In this document: piece by piece, positions 1,801-16,203 of the stretch | Layout: each line of letters begins with the position of its first letter | How positions within the stretch are numbered: position 1 is the first letter of the stretch | Assembly (NCBI GenBank): GCA_903874975.1 | Contig: CAIQUL010000070.1 | Location: 1-44,108 of the forward strand | Origin: an uncultured Chthoniobacter sp. | Lineage (GTDB): Bacteria > Verrucomicrobiota > Verrucomicrobiia > Chthoniobacterales > Chthoniobacteraceae | Length of the DNA stretch: 44,108 nt | Direction: 5' to 3' | The notes under the pieces: generated by a model | What the model was told of the DNA's origin: nothing | Databases searched by the model: none | What the model saw: only the letters and a program-made list of their open reading frames with translations | Translations under genes and position numbers: made by a program

Positions 1801-2679
1801 TCAGCCGAGCAGATTCTTCAGCGCGGGGGCAAGTTCGGCGAAGGTGAACCCAAAACCGTGGTCGAGGGCGGCGGCGGGGAGGACGCGTTTGCTGTCGAGG
1901 AGCTCGCGGGCGAAGTCGCCGAGCGCGGCGCGGAGGGCGAAGGCAGGGACGCGGAGGAAGGCCGGGCGGTGGAGGGTGGCGGCGAGCGTGCGGGTGAAGT
2001 CGGCGTTGCGCACGGGCCACGGGGCGGAGCCATTGAGCGGACCGCGGACGTCGAGGTTCTCGATGGCGAAGAGGGCGAGCTGCGCGAGGTCATCGAGGTG
2101 AATCCACGACATCCACTGGCGGCCATCGCCGAGCGGACCGCCGAGGCCGAGTTGGAAAATGGGTGTCATCGGCGCGAGCGCGCCGCCGCTTTTCCCGAGG
2201 ACAAGCGAGGTGCGCAGCGTAACCAGGCGGACTCCTTCAACCCGCTCCGCCTCGACCTCCCATGCCTGCGTGGTTGCGGCGAGGAAGCCGGTGCCACCGG
2301 GCGAAGTTTCGGTGAGTTCCGTGTCGCCGCGATCGCCGTAGAAGCCAATGGCGGAGCCGCTGAGCAGGACCTCGGGCTTTTCTCGCACGGCGTTGATTGC
2401 TTCGACCACCCGGCGGGTGCCGAGCACGCGGCTTTCCGTGATGCGGCGCTTTTTTGCCGCGGTCCACAGTCCCATCACGGACTCGCCGGCGAGGTGGATG
2501 AGCGCCTCGCAGCCGGCGATGTCGGGCGGGCGCTCCAGCGAAAAATCGCGCATTTCACACCCGGGAATCGCCCGTCGCGGAGCGCGCGTGAATGCCACGA
2601 TCTCGTGCCCGCGCCGCAGCGCGAGGTCGATGATTTTTCCGCCGATGAAGCCGGTCGCGCCGGTGACGCCGATGTGCAT
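1801..2679 (-). CDS. TIGR01777-type NAD(P)-dependent epimerase
   Basis: The 292-residue protein opens with MHIGVTGATGFIGGKIIDLA, an extended-SDR Rossmann motif (GxTGFIG). It then shows LIHLAGESVMGLWTAAKK, SGSAIGFYGDRGDTELTE (SDR Ser and Tyr region) and a C-terminal domain ending in LNVTP-like sequence rich in Ala and Leu, as in the YfcH/SulA family. These cytoplasmic proteins are annotated as nucleoside-diphosphate-sugar epimerases, but their substrate is unknown. The length is normal. It follows the amidase gene on the same strand, separated only by a hairpin-type repeat (2682-2750). Confidence 0.85.
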   Translation of the reverse strand: MHIGVTGATGFIGGKIIDLALRRGHEIVAFTRAPRRAIPGCEMRDFSLERPPDIAGCEALIHLAGESVMGLWTAAKKRRITESRVLGTRRVVEAINAVREKPEVLLSGSAIGFYGDRGDTELTETSPGGTGFLAATTQAWEVEAERVEGVRLVTLRTSLVLGKSGGALAPMTPIFQLGLGGPLGDGRQWMSWIHLDDLAQLALFAIENLDVRGPLNGSAPWPVRNADFTRTLAATLHRPAFLRVPAFALRAALGDFARELLDSKRVLPAAALDHGFGFTFAELAPALKNLLG

Positions 2680-2681
2680 TT

Positions 2682-2750
2682 AGGATTTAAGATTTAGGAT
2701 TTGGGACGGATTCGCCTTTGCTGCCGCCAAAATGCTCAATGCTAAATCCC
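2682..2750. repeat. Intergenic inverted repeat with heptad arms (locus A)
   Basis: Left arm 2682-2705 and right arm 2727-2750 are inverted repeats matching at 18 of 24 positions by eye, around a 21-nt loop. The arms consist of degenerate 7-nt units such as GGATTTA and AGATTTA and are AT-rich in a GC-rich neighbourhood. The element fills the gap between the amidase stop (2752) and the epimerase start (2679). Its sequence is unrelated to the other loci, but the design is the same. Confidence 0.75.
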
Positions 2751-6292: not shown

Positions 6293-6404
6293 GGGAAATG
6301 ACGAATGACGAATGACGAATGACGAACGAAGCCGAAAATCCGAATGGCGGGTTCCGGGCCAGGGTGAACGGGTTTGCTTCGTCATGGCGGCTTCGTCATT
6401 TCCC
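6293..6404. repeat. Intergenic inverted repeat with heptad arms (locus B)
   Basis: Four perfect tandem copies of AATGACG occupy 6297-6324. The other arm carries CTTCGTCAT at 6377-6385 and 6391-6399, exactly two heptads apart. The outermost 13 nt (6293-6305 and 6392-6404) are perfect inverted repeats. The element occupies the entire space between the truB stop (6405) and the ribF start (6290), so it would be transcribed within this operon. Confidence 0.8.
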
Positions 6405-7124: not shown

Positions 7125-8085
7125 GGTCAAGGGCTTGTAAAACTTTTTCCTGCACTGCGGCGAGCGTCCCGGGTGTGCGGGCACCGGCGGCGAGTTGATG
7201 GCCGCCGCCGCCGAAGAGGCCGCAGATTTTGCTCACGTCGATCTTGGGCGATTTCGAGCGCAGGCTGATGCGGATTTTCCCGTCGCCCAGTTCCTCGAAA
7301 AACGCGGCGGCCACGACGGTGTCGATGCTGCGGATGGAGTCGATAAGCCCTTCGTTGTCCTCGGGCTGGATGCCGAGCGTGCGGGCGGTTTCGGCGGAAA
7401 GAGCGAAGCTGGCGACGCGATCCCGGCTCGTGAGGCGCAGGACGTTGAGCAGGGCGCGGAGGAGTTCCAGCCGGCGGCGCGGATAGCTCTCGTACATTTT
7501 CTGCGAGAGGTCGCCCACGTTCACGCCGAGCCGGATGAGGTCGGCCGCGATCTCGTAGGTGCGCGCGGTGGTGCTCGGGTATTGGAAGGAGCCGGTGTCG
7601 GTGCTGATCGCCGCGAAAAGGTTGTCCGCCATTTCGTAGGTCAGCGGCAGGTCGCACTGGCGGAAAAGTTCGTAAAGCACCTGGCCCGCGGCGGGCGCGG
7701 TGGCATCCACGTAGGCGAAGTCGCCGAAGCGCGGGTTCGTGTGGTGGTGGTCGATATTGATCCACACGTCGGCGTGCGCGATGGCCGTGCGCGCGGTGCC
7801 GGCACGGTTTTCGACGGCGTTGTCGAGGACGACGGCGACGTCGAAAGTCTGCGGATCGGCGGGCGGCTGGGTGACGAGTTCGGAGCCGGGGAGGTAGCGG
7901 AATTTTTCGGGCACGCCGTCTTCGTTCCAGGCGGTCACGTCTTTGCCGAGCTGGCGGAGGCAAAGAGTCATCGCGAGCGTGCAGCCGAGCGCATCGCCAT
8001 CCGGGCGCGCGTGGCTGATGACGACGAAGCGCTGCCGCGTGCGGAGAATGGCGGCGATCTCAGCGAGGGTGCAGTTACTTTTCAT
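7105..8085 (-). CDS. nrnA: DHH-family oligoribonuclease / pAp phosphatase (NrnA-like)
   Basis: The 326-residue protein has the DHH domain motifs SHARPDGDALGC, VVLDNA, the INIDHHHTN signature and STDTGSFQYP, then a DHHA1 domain with the GGGGHQLAAG nucleotide-binding loop near the end. Family members degrade nano-RNAs and dephosphorylate pAp using manganese. Location between rbfA and truB is the classical arrangement of this gene. The start overlaps the rbfA stop by 11 nt and the end overlaps truB. Confidence 0.92.
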   Translation of the reverse strand: MKSNCTLAEIAAILRTRQRFVVISHARPDGDALGCTLAMTLCLRQLGKDVTAWNEDGVPEKFRYLPGSELVTQPPADPQTFDVAVVLDNAVENRAGTARTAIAHADVWINIDHHHTNPRFGDFAYVDATAPAAGQVLYELFRQCDLPLTYEMADNLFAAISTDTGSFQYPSTTARTYEIAADLIRLGVNVGDLSQKMYESYPRRRLELLRALLNVLRLTSRDRVASFALSAETARTLGIQPEDNEGLIDSIRSIDTVVAAAFFEELGDGKIRISLRSKSPKIDVSKICGLFGGGGHQLAAGARTPGTLAAVQEKVLQALDHEFDQP

Positions 8086-8458
8086 CGGGCTCAGGCTCAG
8101 CCTGCCCGAGCGGTTCGTCGGGCGGAATTTCGATCTGCTCGAGGAGGGTGATGATGCGGGTGCCGCGCTCGATGGTTTCGTCGAGTTTGAAATGGAGGTG
8201 CGGCGTGTATTTGAGGACGACGCGTTTCGAGAGGAGGTGCTGGAGGCTCTTGCGGCTGGCGTGGAGTTTGGCGAGCACGGCGTGGCACTGCTCGGGGCTG
8301 CCCATGACGCTGACGAAAACGTGGGCGTTTTTCAGGTCGGGCGTGATATCGACCTGCTGTACGGTGACGAGCGCGGCGTCGAAGGAAACCTCGCGGTTGA
8401 TGAGTTCGCCCAGCTCGCGCCGCATCAGTTCGTTGACTCGTTCGAGGCGGTGCTTCAT
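8075..8458 (-). CDS. rbfA: Ribosome-binding factor A
   Basis: RbfA is a KH-like factor for maturation of the 16S rRNA 5' end. The 127-residue protein starts MKHRLERVNELMRRELGELI and has the VTVQQVDITPDLKNAHVFVSV strand and the helix KSLQHLLSKRVVLKYTPHLHFKLDETIERG, all diagnostic. The start at 8458 is chosen by homology; upstream codons lie inside a repeat. The gene is separated from infB by a heptad-arm hairpin and overlaps nrnA. Confidence 0.93.
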   Translation of the reverse strand: MKHRLERVNELMRRELGELINREVSFDAALVTVQQVDITPDLKNAHVFVSVMGSPEQCHAVLAKLHASRKSLQHLLSKRVVLKYTPHLHFKLDETIERGTRIITLLEQIEIPPDEPLGQAEPEPDEK

Positions 8459-8464
8459 GGGGAC

Positions 8465-8562
8465 GTTGAGTGTTGAATATTGATTGTTGAGTGACGCGAA
8501 ATTTCGGAGAGAGCGGTGCTGTTGGGCGCCTTTCACTCAACACTCAACTCTCATCACTCAAC
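8465..8562. repeat. Intergenic inverted repeat with heptad arms (locus C)
   Basis: Arms 8465-8494 and 8533-8562 are inverted and match at 25 of 30 positions, with a 38-nt loop. Each arm is four degenerate heptads (units such as GTTGAGT, ATTGATT and, on the other arm, GATGAGA). The element fills the gap between the infB stop (8571) and the rbfA start (8458), where these genes are normally tightly packed. Confidence 0.8.
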
Positions 8563-8570
8563 CTTCCTCG

Positions 8571-10724
8571 TCAGAGCTTCTGTGCGTGTTTTTCGAGCGT
8601 GTAGCACTCGATGATGTCGCCCGGCTCGTAGTCGTTGAAGTCGCCGAGTTTGATGCCGCATTCGAGGCCGGAGCGGACTTCCTTCACGTCGTCGGTGAAA
8701 CGACGGAGCGTCGCGAGGCCGCCGTCGTAGATCGGCTGGCGACCGCGGAGGACACGGGCGCGGCCAGTGCGGGAGATGCGCCCGTCGGTGACGGCGCATC
8801 CGGCCACGAGGCCCTTCGACAGCTCGAACACTTTTTTGACTTCGGCGTGGCCGATGACGGACTCGCGGGTCTCGGGATCGAGCAGGCCGGCCATGGCTTC
8901 CTTCACCTGGTCGATGAGTTCGTAAATGATCGAGAAGAGTTTGATCTGCACGCCTTCGCGGCGCGCGACATTCGCGGCGGTGGCTTCGGTTTTGACGCCA
9001 AAGCCGACGACGACGGCCTCCGAGGCGACGGCCAGCGCGATGTCGTTTTCGCTGATCGGACCGACGGCGCCGTGGATGATTTCGGCGTCGATCTTCTTGC
9101 TCTGGATTTCGCCGAGCGCGGTGATGATCGCTTCGAGCGAACCTTGCACGTCGCACTTGAGGACGAGGTTGAGCTTCTTCTTCTGCCCTTCCTTGATGGT
9201 GTCGAAAAGGCTTTCGAGCGTGGCGCGTTTCGGCGCGGCGAGTTTGCCCAAGCGCTCGGCTTCCATGCGCTCCGCGCCGAGTTCCTGCGCGGCGCGCTCG
9301 CTTTCGAGGACCACGAGTTCGTCGCCCGCAAAAGGCAGGCCCGAAAAGCCGAGCACGCGGCACGGGGTGGACGGCCCGGCCTCCTTGATGGGCTTGCCGT
9401 TGTCGTCAATGAGCGACTTCACCTTGCCAAAAAATTTGCCGCAGATGAAGGGCATGCCGATTTTGAGCGTGCCGGTTTTCACGATGATCGTAGCGGTCGG
9501 GCCGCGGCCCTGCTCGACCTGCGCCTCGATGACCGAGCCGCGGGCCAGTTGCTGGCCGCTGGCTTTGAGTTCCAGCACTTCGGCTTCGAGCTGGATGCGT
9601 TCGAGCAGTTCGTTGATGCCCTGCTTTTTGAGCGCCGCGACGGGGCAGACGCCGATGGTGCCGCCCCAATCCTCGGGCGTGAGACCTTTCTCCTGAAGCT
9701 GGCCTTTAACTTTGTCTAAGTTCGCGCCGGGCGCGTCCATTTTCGTGACGGCGACGATTATCCCGACCTTCGCAGCCTTGGCGTGGTTCATGGCCTCAAT
9801 GGTCTGAGGCATGATGCCGTCGTCCGCGGCGACGACGAGGACGACGATGTCCGTGACGCTGGCTCCGCGGGAGCGCATGGCGGTGAAAGCAGCGTGGCCA
9901 GGAGTGTCGAGGAAGGTGATCTGGTGGCTGTTGTGGGTGACGCTGTAGGCGCCGATGTGCTGGGTGATGCCGCCGGCTTCGCCCGCGGCGACGCGCGCTT
10001 TGCGGATGGCGTCCATGAGGGTCGTTTTGCCGTGATCGACATGGCCCATGAAGGTCACGATCGGGGCGCGCAGGTGGAGTTCGTCCGGCTTTGGTTTGGC
10101 GGGTTCCTTGGGCGGTTCCTTGACGACGACCGGCTTGTGGACGCCGCCGCCGACCTTGCGGGTTTCCCTTTCAAAAGTGTACCCGTGCTTGGTGCAAACC
10201 TTGGCCGCAACATCGGCCTCGATCGTCTGATTGATCGCGGCGAAAATGTTCATCTCCATGAGGTCGCCGATGACCTGGAATGGCCGGATGTTCATGGCCG
10301 TGGCGAGATCACGGACGGTGAACGGCGGCTTGAGATGGATGATCTTTTCGTTGGTCGGGGCCGCCGCTTCCGGGGCAGTGTCGGCGGGTGCGGCCGGCGC
10401 GACGATTTCCTGCGGTGCCGGGGCCACCACCGCGGCAGCTTTGGGCGCATCCGGCTCGAGGATTTTCGAGATCGGGATGTGCGCGAAGGGCTTGTTGGTC
10501 AACTCCGACGCTGTACGCGGGCGGCGCTTCGGCTTCGCGTCGATCAGTGAGACCGTTTCCTGGGGAACTTTCGGCGGTGCCGGTGGGGCGGTTTCCCTGG
10601 TCGCCGGAGCTGGCTCAGAGGTGGCGAATTTTCGCGTCGTCTTGGGCGCGGCACCAGGTTTGGCCTTGGCTTTGGCCTCGTCGGTCTTTTTCGCGCTCGC
10701 TTTGTTGGTCGTCTTGGTAGGCAT
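8571..10724 (-). CDS. infB: Translation initiation factor IF-2
   Basis: IF-2 is the GTPase that positions fMet-tRNA on the 30S subunit. The 717-residue protein has a Lys/Ala/Pro-rich disordered N-terminus (residues 1-150), an IF2-N helix motif ([20 protein letters not shown]), and the G domain with [18 protein letters not shown] and VTKMDAPG. Beta-barrel and IF2-C domains follow (ARRRGV-like loops and [18 protein letters not shown]). It is shorter than the E. coli protein because of a compact N-terminal extension. The ATG at 10724 is preferred over the adjacent TTG. It follows nusA by 30 nt. Confidence 0.96.
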
Positions 10725-10754
10725 CAAAGTTTTTTTTGGAGTTGGCCCTCATGG

Positions 10755-13331: not shown

Positions 13332-13403
13332 GGGTTGGTAGCTCAATGGTAGAGCAGCGCCCTTTTAAGGCGTTGGTTCCGGGTTCAAGTCCCGGCCAAC
13401 CCA
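13332..13403 (+). tRNA. tRNA-Lys (UUU)
   Basis: A complete 72-nt cloverleaf folds by eye. The acceptor stem GGGTTGG pairs with CCAACCC (13396-13402); the D-arm is GCTC/GAGC; the anticodon stem GCGCC/GGCGT holds loop CTTTTAA with TTT at 34-36; the T-arm CCGGG/CCCGG holds TTCAAGT. The discriminator base is A and CCA is not encoded. Confidence 0.97.
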
Positions 13404-16105: not shown

Positions 16106-16171
16106 TTCTTCCTCTTCCTCTTAATCTTTCAGCGGGGGAATGGAGGAAGATTTAAGCGGAAGCGGAAGAGG
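16106..16171. repeat. Intergenic inverted repeat with 6-nt unit arms (locus D)
   Basis: Left arm 16106-16130 is built of CTTCCT-type hexamers; right arm 16142-16171 is its imperfect inverse with CTTCCG-type hexamers, and the arms match at about 21 of 24 positions with one bulge. The loop is short (11 nt). It lies between the hrpA stop (16204) and hisS (start 15978). The design matches loci A-C and E, except that the unit is 6 nt. Confidence 0.7.
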
Positions 16172-16203
16172 AGGAGACAGGCCGCAGCCGATTTAGACGT
16201 TAT

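Follow-up and report, generated by a model that had tools for sequence, protein, structure and literature searches.

The gap between infB and rbfA in the window (the whole 44,108-nt stretch of an uncultured Chthoniobacter sp. analysed here) is filled by an inverted repeat that is probably one copy of a dispersed, non-coding and non-autonomous inverted-repeat element, several families of which coexist. These families would follow one design, in which a tandem array of a unit of about 7 nt is followed, after a variable loop, by its inverted counterpart. The focal GTTGAGT repeat is the lone local copy of the GTTGAGA family that is repeated in Chthoniobacter flavus. The exact GTTGAGT repeat occurs a single time in the genome; in the 344 kb of C. 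flavus examined, GTTGAGA doublets form seven elements, while the 640 kb sampled from the window's genome has none. C. flavus and the congener G001 also have GTTGAGA hairpins at the infB-rbfA gap itself, and the same gap in G003, when examined, held neither a GTTGAGA hairpin nor any other.

The focal structure was recovered as it had been described in the original prediction, i.e. 30-nt arms of degenerate heptads between infB and rbfA (8465-8494 and 8533-8562) that match at 25 of 30 positions, with period 7 detected by TRF in both. When extended, the arms reach 35 nt each and are 80% complementary around the loop (Table 1). The repeat makes up the whole interval from the infB stop (8571) to the rbfA start (8459), both genes lying on the minus strand in the cluster nusA-infB-rbfA-recJ-truB-ribF. 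As RNA, the gap is predicted to fold at -42.6 kcal/mol (z -4.96), a value equalled by none of 200 shuffles.

Table 1. Coordinates of the focal repeat, its neighbouring genes and other inverted repeats (positions in the window unless a locus is named)
Feature	Position	Strand	Remarks
5' arm (plus strand), focal repeat	8460-8494		degenerate GTTGAGT heptads at 8465-8493
Loop between focal arms	8495-8532		38 nt
3' arm, focal repeat	8533-8567		ACTCAAC heptads at 8534-8562
infB (IF-2)	8571-10727	-	stop codon adjoins repeat; Pfam IF-2 and GTP_EFTU
rbfA	8075-8459	-	start codon directly past repeat on coding strand; translation MKHRLERVNELMRRELGEL...; infB neighbour in relatives
AATGACG-family hairpin filling truB-ribF gap	6293-6404		arms 6293-6319 and 6378-6404
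ATTTAGG-type heptad array with degenerate inverted partner	2678-2749		array 2678-2706, partner 2727-2749; intergenic
Inverted repeat, 6-nt unit (TCTTCC / AAGCGG)	16107-16175		arms 16107-16122 / 16160-16175, 88% complementary
CCGGGTGGAGCACTCGACCCGAGTGC GC-rich repeats	L006 2157-2348; L042 6864-7041; L046 9339-9530; L049 154-302; L050 15842-16029 and 18993-19155		

The original prediction had claimed four further loci of like design with different units (A, B, D and E), given without coordinates; three such loci were found in the window (ATTTAGG-type, AATGACG and TCTTCC), the last between two minus-strand ORFs. The genome was surveyed through a 640-kb sample of the draft assembly and targeted stretches. 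The sample contains 23 period-7 arrays, at most six of any other period from 4 to 13, and none after shuffling. The intergenic share of the period-7 arrays is 17 of 23 in DNA that is 17.5% intergenic, and a short-period inverted repeat is present in 33 of the 464 gaps and in 4 of 266 gaps after shuffling; in the C. flavus sample the corresponding counts are 31 of 256 and 0 of 164. These intergenic and gap proportions are approximate because genes were called by a simple codon-usage finder. Heptad arrays are thus more frequent in the genome than chance would give.

The best-represented unit illustrates what a single family looks like. AATGACG doublets, one mismatch being allowed, occur at 104 sites in the genome and the reversed-pattern control at none (for GTTGAGA and GATTTAG such controls are void because the units are mirror-symmetric). 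Intergenic positions account for 54 of the 58 loci analysed. Wherever both arms were recognised the order is fixed, AATGACG, loop, CGTCATT, 14 to 0. The copies have a common consensus that extends beyond the unit, roughly GGGGAAATGACGAATGACGAATGNCGAATGACGAA...loop...TTCGTCATTCNNCATTCGTCATTCGTCATT, so that they constitute one dispersed family related in sequence, the centres of which vary. Two-unit counts depend on lineage: 104 here and 72 in C. flavus, with other congeners at 38, 22 and 1. Genus g3 ranges from 0 to 3 and genus g6 from 6 to 189. Many AATGACG elements lie no more than about 250 nt from a contig end (L244, L245, L251, L256, L261, L264 and L265, on this genome's contigs C190, C214, C299, C322, C102, C117 and C125); the draft assembly is therefore likely to be interrupted at such elements, which makes their copy number an underestimate.

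There are accordingly several hairpin families of one design, each common unit being an ordinary dispersed multi-copy sequence family. The proposal of a repeat defined by architecture and not by sequence holds at the level of the design, which is common to many units even at one orthologous gap in congeners; for single copies it is not supported, given the site counts and shared consensus of AATGACG. Units coexisting in Chthoniobacteraceae include GTTGAGA, AATGACG, ATTTAGG, AAGGATG, CAGTAAT, ATTTTGA and others. Their 5' arm tends weakly to be purine-rich (75%, compared with 60% of other inverted repeats). As a general rule this was rejected, since the bias is reversed in the hexad families of C. 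flavus, and the one firm rule is the order of the arms inside each family. Two C. flavus loci, L187 and L191, carry period-6 inverted repeats (CTTAAT / GATTAA) in which the pyrimidine-rich arm leads, the reverse of what the heptad families show. Inverted repeats of the same design with 8-10-nt units were seen in the truB-ribF gap of L065 and in L177, L183 and L191 of C. flavus (CACGAAGG, CGCAGAG, CACGGATTA and CGCGAATGGA). Long GC-rich inverted repeats around CCGGGTGGAGCACTCGACCCGAGTGC form a family as well (Table 1).

Orthologous gaps in related soil bacteria show recurrent gain of hairpins. Automatic synteny between the samples of this genome and of its relatives yielded 26 such gaps, and others were reached by single-protein searches. 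In the exbB-exbD gap, AATGACG hairpins occupy 105 nt in the window's genome and 120 nt in G332, a CAGTAAT hairpin 102 nt in C. flavus and an ATTTTGA hairpin 115 nt in G331; in seven other relatives the gap measures -1, -1, 2, 3, 13, 17 and 35 nt, the 2-nt one belonging to the nearest congener, whose ExbB is 92% identical. The DUF58-batA gap holds AATGACG here and in G002, AATGCGG in C. flavus, ATTTCGG/AATCCGC in G009, GAATTCA in G003 and an unrelated GC-rich hairpin in G001, and is 3 nt long in G014. Between the fur-like gene and argH the unit is ATTTAGG here, ATTTTCG in G001 and GTTTAAG-like in G014, the gap being as short as 6 nt in other relatives. The M16-M16 peptidase gap contains AATGACG here and hairpins with 8-9-nt units in C. 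flavus and G001, and measures 17 nt in G010, while the truB-ribF gap is 114 nt here and 24-36 nt in most relatives. For six element gaps of the window's genome a syntenic gap exists in C. flavus, and four of these C. flavus gaps hold a short-period hairpin too, compared with 12.1% of all gaps in that species (binomial p 0.003), a value that is indicative only since the six were picked for their conserved flanking genes.

Such gaps could also house an ancient intercistronic RNA element, kept by selection as an mRNA stabiliser, an attenuator or a processing site, whose arms drift in pairs, the differing units at one gap then being descendants of one ancestral hairpin. It is the kind of structure that would explain why, among Verrucomicrobia, infB-rbfA gaps that reach 60 nt contain a short-period hairpin in 18 of 56 cases and nusA-infB gaps in none of 41 (Fisher p 2e-5), and why the infB-rbfA gap folds so strongly. 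The infB-rbfA hairpin of Verrucomicrobiaceae has been passed on by descent, its unit having drifted from GTTTCAA to GTTTAAA while two pairs were altered in both arms. The DUF58-batA array of C. flavus, which mixes AATGCCG, AATGACG and AATGCGG, would suit this explanation too. We nevertheless hold this explanation to be unlikely. Close relatives have no hairpin at all at the same gaps (2-35 nt, and G003 at infB-rbfA), and copies within one genome have a common consensus. Gene orientation is not preferred either, as 24 of 33 element gaps are codirectional and 165 of 233 other gaps are, which gives no sign of a dedicated end-of-gene function. On the InfB tree the units cluster by clade, yet several changes are needed. 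Inherited, drifting hairpins together with filled and empty gaps indicate that repeated gain and in-place drift both occur.

Heptad arrays were also encountered within coding sequence. A search of 289 genomes of the phylum with a 20-mer of the GTTGAGA unit revealed the 27-nt heptad core CTCAACCCTCAACTCTCAACTCTCAAC in frame in five genes that are unrelated to one another and come from other Verrucomicrobia (L207, L208, L209, L210 and L211, around 1490-1520). The core is read as QPSTLNSQ in four of them and in another frame in the fifth, with an identical C variant throughout. Two of the genes encode an alanyl-tRNA synthetase and a monomeric isocitrate dehydrogenase according to PDB matches; the remaining ones we take, from recognition of their sequences, to encode a helicase, an aldolase-like protein and an AMP ligase. 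In the presumed helicase gene (L209), the QPSTLNSQ-type peptide is encoded twice. Compared with the solved structure 1itw, the isocitrate dehydrogenase carries the core as exactly nine extra residues, i.e. 27 nt, and alignment of the alanyl-tRNA synthetase with more distant PDB chains gave no clean insert at the core. Slippage of each gene's own sequence is hard to invoke for an identical core in unrelated genes, and copying of arrays is favoured. This argues for arrays that may spread by copying of existing arrays and not only by local slippage.

A purely local origin, in which a short word close to the end of a gene is multiplied by slippage and then copied in inverted form across the gap by template switching, is for the same reason improbable. 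Unit use is moreover specific to each genome, and one unit with a longer consensus recurs across dozens of loci, sharing outside the unit having been seen for AATGACG. The dominance of period 7 would suit such an origin, and so would the mirrored deviations in both arms of single copies (L007 and L245, with 28/28 arm matches each). Over 22 copies the arms match better within than between copies, by a modest excess with a permutation p of 0.011 in the fair version of the test, the version with register choice being biased (p 5e-5). At L342, the end of exbB (aaattttga) runs into the ATTTTGA array between exbB and exbD so that the unit includes the stop codon, which may show local origin or chance. 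As the whole origin, the slippage and template switching first proposed do not account for empty sites beside filled ones, for lineage-specific copy number or for the identical in-frame core.

Known classes of repeats were compared with the dispersed element favoured here. MITEs are non-coding, dispersed and non-autonomous sequences with inverted ends; in the heptad hairpins, in contrast, neither a target-site duplication (0 of 22 at lengths 2-9, the borders being set by the inverted repeat) nor a fully conserved interior was detected. CGTC-tagged REPs (8-9 bp stem, 4-5 nt loop, CGTC tag) were rejected as the arms are about 30 nt and the loops mostly exceed 15 nt, and inspection of the AATGACG consensus for a small stem-loop found none evident. 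The signature of intrinsic terminators, a G+C-rich stem and a T-run, gave four matches, none at an element, for a shuffled mean of 7.1. At the Rfam gathering score the first 14 kb yielded only a tRNA (13332-13403). The focal element had no match in a plasmid collection, in which one weak Scytonema match to an AATGACG element was obtained.

REP/REPIN elements moved by the genomes' own RAYT (Y1) transposases were a further candidate, which the families resemble in several respects: inverted doublets, variable spacer, single arms that are possible remnants, fixed order and dispersed extragenic copies, as in PMC3116915. Candidate movers exist, with five Y1_Tnp genes in the window's genome and eight in C. 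flavus. Heptad inverted repeats are nevertheless absent around all 13 of these loci, no mobiliser was found tied to the repeats when Y1-type transposases were sought, and the GTAG tag is missing from the AATGACG consensus, so that this attribution seems very improbable. A GTAG-tagged, REP-like palindrome, GTAGCTTGGACTTYAGTCCAAAG, does occur in several copies (L006, L008, L018, L046 and L060), as a family distinct from the heptad repeats. One repeat of another short-period type, in L204, lies more than 1 kb from a Y1_Tnp gene. The REP, RAYT, MITE and terminator signatures are thus lacking.

Cyanobacterial STRR repeats likewise have heptad units, are intergenic and patchily distributed, and consist mainly of direct arrays of one unit. 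REPINs, or REP doublets, are the closest mobile analogue (PMC3116915; PMC3733652), to judge by their dispersed inverted doublets, variable spacer, single-arm copies, extragenic position and capacity to form hairpins; the arms here are, however, tandem heptads and not tagged stem-loops, with no GTAG and no RAYT linkage. In Xanthomonas, the GGGAATC / GGGNATC heptad repeats are intergenic and include 70-75 convergently oriented inverted pairs; most are flanked by the same genes in two species and vary in length and sequence (PMC4692102). The intergenic 7-nt tandem arrays described here likewise form inverted pairs and occupy like gene gaps in related species. Xanthomonas nevertheless uses one G-rich, quadruplex-forming unit, whereas many units are found here, most without G-tracts (GTTGAGT, AATGACG and ATTTAGG lack GGG), and congeners differ in their unit at the same gap. 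The TAACTGA repeats resemble ours in being heptad, intergenic and patchy among genomes (PMC4679880), although they are mainly direct arrays of one unit, with only one inverted case reported, in the BOGUAY genome (PMC4679880). According to work cited in PMC4692102 and PMC4679880, heptads outnumber every other class of long SSR in bacteria, and slippage has been proposed. The earlier statement that no named family of this kind exists must therefore be qualified, inverted heptads having been described in Xanthomonas (PMC4692102); open-access papers searched by unit sequence contained none that quotes the present units. No report of unit replacement at orthologous gaps was found in the open-access literature, and the swapping of units at a fixed orthologous gap appears new within the searchable open-access papers.

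Sequence comparison shows dispersed families with lineage-specific copy number, filled and empty gaps, a fixed arm order within each family and reuse of gaps by different units. Arrays would be copied in trans to new sites, perhaps through a single-stranded hairpin. They would settle in tolerant intergenic gaps, often exactly from stop to start inside a gene cluster, such that the same gap may be targeted more than once, by families that differ from species to species. Slippage would then alter the number of units, and pairing of the arms would be partly kept by template switching within the hairpin or by compensatory change. The element, once in place, would give the transcript a long hairpin between cistrons, and this hairpin may incidentally alter how stable the upstream message is. 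Counting against a mobile element are the absence of a linked mobiliser, of target-site duplication and of an intact element moving between strains of one species, and the inherited, in-place-drifting hairpin of Verrucomicrobiaceae fits a maintained structure equally.

More speculatively, and with little confidence on our part, these could be undescribed mobile palindromes whose copying machinery recognises an architecture, the heptad-array hairpin with its set arm order, and not a sequence. Units would then swap or evolve freely while the element spreads, a process whose trace would be the presence of differing units at a single orthologous gap. The excess of heptanucleotides in bacterial genomes has so far been put down to polymerase slippage, its function being unexplained. 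The heptad arrays described here behave like dispersed insertable elements, with copy number by lineage, empty and filled alleles, in-frame copies in enzymes and reuse of gaps. In the isolate genome of C. flavus Ellin428 they offer a concrete system for the spread of short-unit palindromes without an obvious transposase, and the same system bears on why certain gaps within operons accept hairpins and others do not.
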